A stretch of 48,944 bases of DNA from a virus: positions 1-48,944 of the IMG/VR virus record IMGVR_UViG_3300006802_000143; one strand, written 5' to 3'. The notes beneath the pieces are model-generated. The model was not told the DNA's origin and did no database searches. It was given only the letters and a program-made list of their open reading frames with translations. Shown one piece after another: positions 11,333 to 18,747 of this stretch. The translations under genes were made by a program, and so were the position numbers. Position 1 is the stretch's first letter, and each line of letters starts with the position of its first letter.

Positions 11333-12819
11333 CACGATACTTTCTTCTTGAGGCCCTTGATGTAGCGGATGACTGACGCCCTGACCGCCTTCTCAAATGC
11401 AATGTTGGGAGGAGCGGGCACATCGACCAAACCCTTTGGCCATACGCCGAACTTGTCTTTGTATGTGTGGGCCGCGCGCCCGGGCGACCAGCCCTCGTGC
11501 TGCACCTTCCACTGGCACATCGACCACCATGCCTGCTTGTTCTCACGGCTCATGGCCTGCAGCTCTGTCATCTCACCCGGCACGCTATCCACCAGGTTTT
11601 TCTTCTCGCGCACGTAACCGCAGTGAGAACAGGTGTCTGCAAACTTGGGCATGTACGCCTCGCACCGCGGGCACTTGGCTTCTTTCTTTTCCTTCTCGGT
11701 TGGTTCTTTCTTGGGCTTCTCTTTGCCATCATCCAGCTCGTGCACGCCGTTCTCGTACACGTCTTCCCAATCCTCGCGGAAGCGCAGGTAGTTGCCCGAG
11801 TGGTCCAGCCACAGAGCAAACGGCTTGGACTCTGGATCAGCCATGTTGGCGCGCATCACTCGACCCATCTGCTGAATGTGGGAGGAGAGGGATTTGCTGA
11901 ACGGCCTGGCAGACACGCCGATCATCACGTCAGGCACGTCAAACCCTTTGGTCAGAATGTCTGTGGCGATCAGACCATGAATCTCTGTGTCCGGCTTGGC
12001 AAAGTCCTCGATAACTTCCTTCTTGAACTCATCATCATCTCGATAGCTGATGCTGATGAAGTTGTAGCCAGCCTCTGCGAACTTGCGCGACAGGTCCATG
12101 CCGTGCTCGACACCGGAGCAGAACACAATGGTCTTGCGCGGGCGGCCGAACACTTCGTGCGTCATCTTCACCCACTCAGTAACCACGTCACCGGTGATCT
12201 TCATGCCACGCTTGGATGCTTCTGCCTGCGACCACTCGCCGGCCACCTTCTTGGCGCCCGACATGTCGATCTCTTTGGCAATGAACACACGCAAGGGCAC
12301 GAGCACGCCCTGATCCACCAGCTGCTTGGTGGTGATAGAGGAGACGACGTTGTCGTACACCTTGCCCAGCCCCTTGGTGAATGGCGTTGCAGTCAGGCCA
12401 ATGACTTTGATATCCGGGTTGTTCTTGATGAAATCAATCGTCTGCTCGCGCGTCTGGTGACACTCATCGATGATCAGCAACGACAAGTCAGGGAATGCGC
12501 CACGCTTCTCGATAGTCTGGGCCGAGCAGATTTGAATGTTCTCGTACGGGCGATAACGCCAGTGCCCTGACTGCAGGACGCCGTGGTCGATGCTGTACTT
12601 CTCGAGGCGCTGGCTGGTCTGGTCACACAGAACGATGCGGTCCAGCAGCATGGCCGCCTTGTTGCCCTTGTTCTTTGTGGCCTCCAGCAGAGCAATGGCC
12701 ATCTCAGTTTTGCCGGCACCAGTTGGTGCATACAGAACCTGATGACGCTTGCCTGCTGCAAACCCACTACGCAAATTGGCAATGATGTCAGATTGATACT
12801 GACGTAGATTCAGTGACAT
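11332..12819 (-). CDS. SF2 DEAD/DEAH-type helicase with zinc ribbon
   Basis: 495 residues. Walker A APTGAGKTEM (31-40), Walker B LIIDECHQ (115-122), motif III GLTATPF, then the second RecA-like domain with GLIATDILTKGFDVPDV and HIQQMGRVMRA (motif VI). A four-cysteine zinc ribbon CPRCEAYMPKFADTCSHCGY lies near 385, and a helical C-terminal segment follows. This is the architecture of phage UvsW/RecG-like or restriction-type (ResIII) helicases that unwind or anneal DNA during replication and recombination. GGAGTTCTT precedes ATG. The primase follows in TGATG overlap. Confidence 0.9.
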   Translation of the reverse strand: MSLNLRQYQSDIIANLRSGFAAGKRHQVLYAPTGAGKTEMAIALLEATKNKGNKAAMLLDRIVLCDQTSQRLEKYSIDHGVLQSGHWRYRPYENIQICSAQTIEKRGAFPDLSLLIIDECHQTREQTIDFIKNNPDIKVIGLTATPFTKGLGKVYDNVVSSITTKQLVDQGVLVPLRVFIAKEIDMSGAKKVAGEWSQAEASKRGMKITGDVVTEWVKMTHEVFGRPRKTIVFCSGVEHGMDLSRKFAEAGYNFISISYRDDDEFKKEVIEDFAKPDTEIHGLIATDILTKGFDVPDVMIGVSARPFSKSLSSHIQQMGRVMRANMADPESKPFALWLDHSGNYLRFREDWEDVYENGVHELDDGKEKPKKEPTEKEKKEAKCPRCEAYMPKFADTCSHCGYVREKKNLVDSVPGEMTELQAMSRENKQAWWSMCQWKVQHEGWSPGRAAHTYKDKFGVWPKGLVDVPAPPNIAFEKAVRASVIRYIKGLKKKVS

Positions 12820-16781: not shown

Positions 16782-17441
16782 TCAATTGATCTTGAATTGC
16801 TTCTTGACCTCTTTCTCGCGGTCGGTCTCCACCACACGGAACAGACCAAACCCACAGCCAGCCGAAGCCTTGCTGTCAGGACGGCCCGCCCCGATCCCTA
16901 CCTGCATCCCGCAACGGGACACAAGGTTCAATACATCTGTCATCTTGAACTGGTCCATGTCATACCGCACCGACAGCTTGGCCGCCCACTTGCGATACAT
17001 CGGACGTGAACGCACATCCACCACGCCGGTCGCGTTGCGGGTGTGAGCGGTATACGTGTGGCTCTCACCATAGATCTGGACCAACGGAACCCCGTCGTTC
17101 TTATCAAACCCGTCAGCCTCAACAAAGGTGGATAGCTTAGCCAGCGTCATCTTGAAACCCACCAGACGGCAGGCACTGATCATGGCCGCGCGGAAGGCCG
17201 CAGCATTCATACCCTCCCAGCCCTCGGGCGAACGGTAACGGGCCTCCTCGGCCTCTTTGTCATAGTCCCGTGCACTACGCTCTTTCTTGTTCTTGGCAGA
17301 TGAACCCTCTGCCATCTTGGCCATCAGCTCCGCCTTCTTGCTGAACCGCTCCACCACCAGCGGGGCAGTGCCCTCGATGATGAACTGCACGGTGCCAAAC
17401 TTGGGGGCGGTGATAACACCAGTCTCTTCTTTCACGCTCAT
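16782..17441 (-). CDS. Conserved phage protein, first gene of the leftward early operon
   Basis: 219 residues from ATG 17441 (GGAG 7 nt upstream). It opens with QFIIEGTAPLVVERFSKKAE, has a charged loop, then MNAAAFRAAMISACRLVGFK with MTLAKLSTFV, RSRPMYRKWAAKLSVRYD, and a glycine-rich end GIGAGRPDSKASAGCGFGLF. This domain order is well conserved among phages and prophages, usually listed without function. The beta-alpha alternation and Gly-rich loop recall RRM/RAMP folds, but this is speculative. A sigma70-like promoter and an operator-like repeat lie directly upstream. Confidence 0.7.
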   Translation of the reverse strand: MSVKEETGVITAPKFGTVQFIIEGTAPLVVERFSKKAELMAKMAEGSSAKNKKERSARDYDKEAEEARYRSPEGWEGMNAAAFRAAMISACRLVGFKMTLAKLSTFVEADGFDKNDGVPLVQIYGESHTYTAHTRNATGVVDVRSRPMYRKWAAKLSVRYDMDQFKMTDVLNLVSRCGMQVGIGAGRPDSKASAGCGFGLFRVVETDREKEVKKQFKIN

Positions 17442-17525: not shown

Positions 17526-17533
17526 CAAAAAAA

Positions 17534-17549
17534 TGTCACCTAAGTGACA
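17534..17549. promoter_or_regulatory. Operator-like inverted repeat TGTCAC-N4-GTGACA
   Basis: TGTCACCTAAGTGACA with perfect 6-bp arms lies 8 bp upstream of the -35 of the leftward promoter. The position suits an activator, or a repressor of the divergent unit. Third and most symmetric copy of the TGTCRC-N4-GYGACA family. Confidence 0.6.
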
Positions 17550-17571
17550 GCTGGATTCTTTGGTTTCCTGT

Positions 17572-17585
17572 TGGCAACGTTGCCA
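17572..17585. repeat. 14-bp palindrome TGGCAACGTTGCCA, copy 3
   Basis: Exact copy in the divergent intergenic region between the leftward early promoter and the start of the candidate structured RNA. Confidence 0.9.
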
Positions 17586-17629
17586 GAGAACTTTTGTTTC
17601 CGGCTCTACTCATAATATATTTATTTAAC

Positions 17630-18380
17630 CTAGAGGGAGGGAGGGTTCGCTAGGGGCAGAACTCACCTAAGAGCATTGCTGCCCTTAGTGGTTTGCCTCC
17701 TGCCATTCAACCTGTCGGTCGGGATGGGACATAACGGGGCCAGCAGACACATGCAAGCGTTCTGCAGTCGAGGATTACGGTGCTTGCTACACCCCCTTCT
17801 CCCGGTTCCTCGCAGGCTTTCGCCTCACTCATTTCGGGTCGGCTTGGGAAGGTTCCCCGTAGCCTCTCAACACAGTTACGGCGGCGTAATGCGGTCTACC
17901 TGTGTCCAGTCGGGCGTAGGCTGGGTTCTGAGTCCCACTTAATTCGCAGCAAACTTCGGTCTGCGATCCTCTGTAGCAGCCAAAAGCAAAAACCCCGCAA
18001 GATGCTCTGTGGTCTTGGCTCTTGGCATGAGCAGCAGCAAGCGATTGAAGATAAGTCCAAAAGACTCGCCTACTACACGACAAGACCACACAGTACCCTG
18101 CGGGGTTTGTAACCTATCTTCATCGCCGGTTGCCACACCGACGGCCATACTGTATCTGGGGGTGAAAATCCGTGTCAAGTGGGGGAGTTGGGCTCGATTT
18201 GGCCTTCAACTACGGCAGGCAGGAAAGCCAGAAAACTACCTGCGTCGGCATCCTCGACTGGTGGCTTAACACCCAACACGGCTGGGGCCGCTCACATAAA
18301 GCAGTGTGGGCAATTGAACAACACTCTGAGAAGAGAGTCCGCGGCGCTAACCCGCTTTCAGCCCCATGCGTGTTGGTCCT
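17630..18380 (+). ncRNA. Candidate large structured RNA (about 750 nt)
   Basis: No credible gene lies between 17442 and 18459. The stretch holds strong pairings: 17650-17659 with 17679-17688 (10 bp including one G-U on the + strand); 17769-17774 with 17806-17811; GGCT/AGCC with GGGAA/TTCCC around 17841-17864; 17990-18017 with 18081-18108; a 12-bp pseudoknot 18041-18053 with 18115-18126; and 18275-18288 with 18361-18374 closing smaller hairpins. AT-rich sequence (17611-17630) upstream may hold a promoter. Size, ornate folding and phage context recall the GOLLD and ROOL classes of giant phage-associated RNAs, but I cannot match a consensus. The + strand is inferred from the G-U pair. Confidence 0.55.
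17990..18126 (+). ncRNA. Hairpin plus pseudoknot core of the candidate RNA
   Basis: AAACCCCGCA (17990-17999) pairs with TGCGGGGTTT (18099-18108), and TGTGGTCTTG (18008-18017) with CAAGACCACA (18081-18090), across a partly paired internal loop. Within the loop, GCGATTGAAGATA (18041-18053) pairs with TATCTTCATCGC (18115-18126), outside the hairpin, with one bulged T: an H-type pseudoknot. Thirty-two base pairs in 137 nt are far beyond chance. Confidence 0.75.
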
Positions 18381-18410
18381 AAAAAGGTGGGGCCATATCT
18401 CAGGCCCCAC
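18381..18410 (-). terminator. Rho-independent terminator for the VRR-NUC-like gene
   Basis: On the minus strand GTGGGGCC, 8-nt loop, GGCCCCAC, then CTTTTT. A perfect 8-bp GC-rich stem followed at once by five T residues, 50 nt after the stop of the leftward nuclease gene. On the + strand there is no T run, so it is directional. Confidence 0.8.
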
Positions 18411-18459
18411 TAACCCTCATAGGAGAAGCAATGCGGCAACTGCTCACCGCGCCCCCACT

Positions 18460-18747
18460 TTATCCCATCCCCGTAACCGCAGCAATCGCCTCATCAACAG
18501 TGTTGACTATCGCCAGCGATCCACCCCGCCACTCGTCAAAAAACTTCTGCTCCGCCGGCGTCAGCTTGCGCGCAGACGGCGGCTTCTTCCCATCCTTCAC
18601 CTCCAACAGAATCGTCTTTCCCATAAACCCTATAAGCAAGTCGGGTATCCCATCCCCCTGGCTTATTACCCTCACCGTCGCCCCTATCGCCCTCAGAGCG
18701 GCAACGATGTCCGATTGATTTTCATCCACGCGTGCGGCACGTCTCAT
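18460..18747 (-). CDS. VRR-NUC-like nuclease (PD-(D/E)XK fold)
   Basis: 95 residues from ATG 18747. It starts RRAARVDENQSDIVAALRAI (early Glu/Gln as in VRR-NUC), then GIPDLLIGFMGKTILLEVKD, giving the catalytic set Asp36, Glu49-x-Lys51. LTPAEQKFFDEWRGGSLAIV is the typical family ending, where W and the last strand pack on the core. Stand-alone VRR-NUC proteins of phages act on branched or Holliday-type DNA. It is transcribed against the neighbouring early operon and has its own terminator. The in-frame extension to 18825 lacks support. Confidence 0.85.
   Translation of the reverse strand: MRRAARVDENQSDIVAALRAIGATVRVISQGDGIPDLLIGFMGKTILLEVKDGKKPPSARKLTPAEQKFFDEWRGGSLAIVNTVDEAIAAVTGMG

Follow-up and report, generated by a model that had tools for sequence, protein, structure and literature searches.

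A new class of large structured phage RNA with a rapidly changing yet complementary pseudoknot helix

Here, we identify a large structured RNA of approximately 615 nt, predicted to be read from the minus strand, in a gene-free region of a phage genome, and we find relatives of its 3' domain in 38 phage contigs. The window, i.e., the whole stretch of DNA analysed, comprises the 48,944 nt of IMG/VR record IMGVR_UViG_3300006802_000143. The RNA has no match in Rfam, homologues of its 3' domain show strong compensatory change, and in otherwise near-identical relatives one internal pseudoknot helix changes sequence very fast while staying paired. It, therefore, looks like a new class of phage control RNA. 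While its identity as a structured RNA class is strongly supported, its function and its transcription are inferred from sequence alone.

The gap described in the first-pass annotation is real, and so are the inverted repeats listed there. No gene with family support lies between the minus-strand gene starting at 17441 (phrog_4652) and the minus-strand endonuclease-like gene whose stop is at 18460 (phrog_93). The hairpin 17990-18017/18081-18108 has 28-nt arms that are 86% complementary. In the pseudoknot, 18041-18053 GCGATTGAAGATA against 18115-18126 TATCTTCATCGC gives 12 pairs with one bulged T. The stem 17650-17659/17679-17688 also exists; however, as read by eye from an alignment of 13 homologues, the homologues favour another pairing there (CACUAAG/CUUAGGUG), and it is not supported as a conserved stem. 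The stem 18273-18288/18361-18376, which had been proposed to close the structure (18275/18374), is real but belongs to a second, separate RNA motif. By contrast, the interpretation given to these observations, i.e., a single plus-strand RNA of nearly 900 nt that is either a member of the GOLLD/ROOL type or a new class, is only partly supported. The region does encode a large structured phage RNA and, on this evidence, one of a class not in Rfam; however, membership of GOLLD or ROOL, the plus strand, and one RNA spanning all 900 nt are not supported because there are two elements with a predicted promoter between them. The features of the region, all on the minus strand, are as follows.

18149..18178 (-): sigma70-like promoter TTGACA-18-TACAGT, kept at the same position in the related loci L004, L007, L008 and L058 (L numbers denote fetched loci)
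18124..18143 (-): hairpin P1 (CGUCGG UGUGGCAA CCGGCG) at the predicted transcription start, with a homologous P1 in L393 and L403-L431
18115..18126 (-): 5' arm of the pseudoknot, GCGAUGAAGAUA, hypervariable between relatives
18041..18053 (-): 3' arm of the pseudoknot, in the P2 loop
17990..18108 (-): hairpin P2, with 28-nt arms 18081-18108 and 17990-18017, also found in the relatives that share D1
17982..17992 (-): U-rich tail of P2 (UUUUUGCUUUU), terminator-like
17633..17980 (-): conserved 3' domain D1, about 345 nt, with internal pseudoknots
17526..17549 (-): intrinsic terminator (17549-17534 followed by T7), likely 3' end of the RNA in the window
18273..18376 (-): separate upstream element, in which stem B encloses kissing-hairpin motif A (core 18292-18353)
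18187..18272 (-): conserved sequence next to motif B, shared with L213, L235, L248, L250 and L278
18382..18410 (-): terminator of the upstream endonuclease-like gene

Several lines of evidence support the minus strand as the functional strand, which the first-pass annotation had missed. First, the promoter-like site and the intrinsic terminator both lie on this strand, so that the likely RNA runs leftwards from about 18142 to about 17526. Second, the sequence folds more stably than shuffled sequence, and more so on the minus strand (z = -4.25 for 17526-18148) than on the plus strand (z = -2.83); for 17620-18420 on the plus strand, z = -3.58. Third, G-U pairs appear on the sense strand in the 5' domain. 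A palindrome, GGCAACGTTGCC at 17572-17583, recurs beside the RNA in L004 and L058 (as GGTAACGTTACC in L058) and may be an operator site.

Searches against known families gave no identity for the RNA. The covariance models of GOLLD, ROOL, OLE, HEARO and Betaproteobacteria-1 (RF02932) gave no hit in the window at the Rfam gathering threshold or at E<=10, and GOLLD, ROOL and HEARO gave none in the relatives at gathering. At E<=10, the gap returned only chance-level hits (miRNA, Atu_At1). BLAST searches of the window region in phages and of D1 in phages and plasmids returned nothing, and no tRNA or tmRNA was found in the 48.9-kb window.

Using the neighbouring phrog_4652 gene as bait, 59 loci were fetched. 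Those with the same neighbourhood show that the region is mosaic: the right-hand part with the promoter is largely conserved, whereas the left-hand part is replaced by other sequence, in L004, L005 and L007 with an HNH gene. In L005, a close relative of the window phage, the motif A/B part (1028-1133) is inverted relative to its neighbours.

Homologues of the RNA itself were found by scanning IMG/VR for two short words of the 3' domain, which gave 8 genuine stretches of 10, including the window's own phage, and subsequently 38 genuine of 39. D1 is 338-349 nt long in all sequences that were aligned, and every reading frame of the domain has stops. In an alignment of 13 diverse sequences, 51 pairs, including two internal pseudoknots, are formed in 99.1% of 663 cells, and 25 pairs show change on both sides, amounting to 84 cells. 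Sliding the partner by 1-3 columns drops pairing to 30-41%, and no shuffle of 500 reaches the observed scores. Because some helices were picked by searching the same alignment, the score is somewhat flattered, but the effect is very large. Absence of covariation had been named beforehand as grounds for rejecting a structured RNA; covariation is present and is the decisive evidence here. A conserved loop pairing in D1, ACUCA/UGAGU, shows no covariation and competes with a local helix and is, therefore, not claimed.

Because these relatives were chosen only by words in D1, their 5' domains provide independent evidence. Most show a -10 box, hairpin P1, an arm, and hairpin P2, and the P2 loop holds the complement of the arm. 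The U-rich tail after P2 is present in nearly all of them but weak in L397. The arms differ between relatives and include TGAACGGAAT, TGAAAAGAAT, TGAAAATACT, TGAAACAAAT, GAATCAACT, TGAATCAAT, TGAAAACGAT, TGACGCTAAT, TGGTTGCATCA, GCCACACACA and others. In 15 otherwise near-identical RNAs, the arm columns have a mean diversity of 0.32 (0.65-0.79 in the centre) compared to 0.052 in 514 other columns and 0.13 in the P2 outer stem. The 12-bp pseudoknot is the window's version of this helix.

The RNA also belongs to a wider modular family. A sister 5' domain, referred to as C (P1 GUUGC...GCRAC with a 7-nt loop that pairs with the P2 loop; P2 AAGCCGUUUAC...GUAAACGGCUUUUUU), was found by similarity in relatives and by an exact word in 102 stretches. 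A descriptor finds 121 copies, 85 of them unique, against 0 in shuffled DNA, and 79 of these 85 have a -10 box 6-7 nt before P1. On 32 sequences, the kissing helix is always formed, with 39 double changes. For copies found by the descriptor, complementarity was required, so there only the variety of the helix is informative; however, copies found by similarity alone show the same. In about 100 phage contigs, C precedes several 3' domains that blastn does not connect. One of these is Betaproteobacteria-1, which directly follows C in L330 (785-902), L300 and L391, so that this Rfam family is probably part of a longer modular phage RNA. L347, L395, L415 and L427 join C to the D1 domain of the window, which links the two forms. 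A model of C does not find the window, since the window's 5' domain is a divergent form; under strict filters, it also found nothing in 399 genomes of the Curvibacter order. In MW202484.1 (33533-33892; L434), a C domain with a further pseudoknot sequence lies under an annotated hypothetical protein (UOF77725.1), which is probably a false gene.

In D1 relatives, a same-strand gene often follows within about 20-240 nt, mostly with no terminator detected between. In L404, this gene is replication-initiation-like, and similar reading frames follow in L403, L405 and L409. In L397 and L398, however, the next gene called is on the other strand. In Acidovorax phage AP1 (OM049504.1), the RF02932 RNA (11856-11979) lies just behind helicase and primase genes. 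Small HNH genes lie directly downstream of different 3' domains in a minority of copies (L007, L427, L004, L005, L143 and L300); those of L007 and L427 are clearly similar, and HNH homing could explain the exchange of RNA modules.

The right-hand part of the gap, upstream of the promoter, holds a second, widespread element that has no Rfam match. Motif A consists of two short hairpins whose loops can pair (C-N-C AUAAAGCA G-N-G ... CGGCGCUAACCCG, as read on the strand opposite to the likely RNA) and is enclosed by stem B (CAACACGGCUGGGG...CCCCAUGCGUGUUG). Motif A occurs in dozens of phage contigs, and on 64 sequences 94% of cells pair, with 95 double changes. Its mismatches on the plus strand are mostly A-C/C-A, which are G-U on the minus strand, and it is, therefore, probably also a minus-strand RNA in the window. 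Motifs A and B, found in the window and in L074, L103, L113, L177, L246 and others, often occur in tandem and often start right behind a promoter or end shortly before a start codon. We considered motif A as a plain terminator or riboswitch; however, its position varies between transcription starts, sites before start codons and sites before promoters. tRNA genes lie next to motif A/B arrays in L103, L106 and L081, and some inserts inside motif B, in L260 and L280, resemble tRNA T-arms on the opposite strand. Four GTDB contigs carry motif A, all betaproteobacterial by title, which suggests the hosts; two copies in tandem lie at about 3500-4050 of L292, in an Achromobacter dolens genome.

Altogether, the sequence data establish the strand, the layout, the compensatory change, the homologues, and the hypervariability of the pseudoknot, whereas transcription, regulation and any action in trans are inferred. 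Our favoured, but tentative, model is that the RNA is a leader of phage early/replication operons. This is based on its position at a predicted transcription start, the terminator-like P2 crossed by the pseudoknot, and the lead into same-strand genes that in some cases are replication-initiation-like. In this model, P2 with its U-tail would work as an attenuator, the outcome of which would depend on whether the 5' arm pairs with the P2 loop. Because the arms change fast and together, they would also give self-specificity, i.e., RNA from the same phage could pair in trans while RNA from other phages could not, as for the immunity RNAs of phages P4 and P1 and plasmid copy-control RNAs. The window copy, which has its own terminator, would then act mainly in trans. 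Several observations argue against the model: the window copy ends in its own terminator and is not followed by a replication gene, P2 has an unusually long loop for a terminator, the U-tail of L397 is weak, the downstream genes differ, and the trans-acting RNA it invokes is hypothetical. Moreover, no integrase was found in the window record, which weakens a prophage-immunity reading. A bolder reading, which we consider unlikely although not excluded, is that the pseudoknot is an RNA barcode that differs between phages yet matches within one phage, giving RNA-based self/non-self recognition (superinfection control, replication control or self-only assembly) in a modular family in which one 5' domain type is joined to many exchangeable 3' domains.

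Other explanations appear less likely. The RNA could be a free-standing ornate RNA that works as an RNA-only assembly, with the hypervariable helix formed between molecules and restricting assembly to RNAs of the same phage. The large size, the many pseudoknots, the phage location and the terminator in the window are in line with this idea, and GOLLD and ROOL, which occur in phages, use kissing loops between chains (PMC12286853). However, there is no Rfam match and no tRNA in the window, and in many relatives the RNA runs on into a same-strand gene without a detected terminator; this scenario is possible but doubtful. Still less likely is a put-like processive antiterminator, in which the nascent 5' domain would bind RNA polymerase and make it read through P2 and later terminators. 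A structured RNA at the very start of predicted transcripts, followed by a terminator-like U-tail, fits this idea, as HK022 put is about 70 nt with two stem-loops just downstream of early promoters (PMC9378689); however, no pseudoknot is mentioned for put in that paper, conserved sequence would be expected at a polymerase contact whereas here the loop helix is hypervariable, and the large 3' domain is left unexplained.

We consider it very unlikely that the RNA is an HNH-linked mobile RNA (HEARO/omega-RNA-like or intron-like) that has lost its nuclease gene in the window. By a strict motif, HNH genes follow 3 of 108 copies against 3 of 3000 in the background. Yet, most copies have no HNH gene and none follows in the window, there is no HEARO or intron match in Rfam, the RNA has its own predicted promoter and interrupts no gene, and the HNH genes look like ordinary small HNH endonucleases. 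Least likely is a DNA-level structure, such as a replication origin or recombination hairpins. While the nearness to replication genes in relatives and the exchange of modules between phages could be taken to favour it, G-U pairs in one strand only, a start fixed to a promoter, and pseudoknots all point to RNA.

To large phage RNAs of unknown function such as GOLLD and ROOL, this family adds a well-supported class with a predicted transcription start, a terminator-like switch, a link to replication genes in relatives, and a fast-evolving matched helix. Like GOLLD and ROOL, the RNA is large, ornate, found in phages and contains pseudoknots; however, it has no sequence or structure match to them, often leads into a protein gene, and, while GOLLD, which forms a homo-oligomeric nanocage, is often near tRNA islands, has no tRNA in the window. 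It shares with HK022 put a location at the start of phage transcripts, early ones for put and predicted ones here, and two hairpins, but put has no 345-nt 3' domain and no hypervariable helix. As for HEARO, an HNH gene sometimes follows, although only in a minority of copies and of a small ordinary type. The phage immunity RNAs (P4 CI RNA, P1 c4) and plasmid copy-control leaders resemble the model favoured here in that they are leader RNAs near replication genes in which complementary segments set specificity, but no homology to them was seen, and an antisense or trans-acting RNA is only hypothetical here. The closest relation is to Betaproteobacteria-1, reportedly first described by Weinberg in 2017 (PMC5737381), which is one of the 3' domains directly behind the sister 5' domain and lies near phage replication genes in Acidovorax phage AP1. 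The Rfam model covers 120 nt, without the 5' domain and most of the RNA, and the window's 3' domain does not match it; the findings reported here place this Rfam family in a larger modular system.
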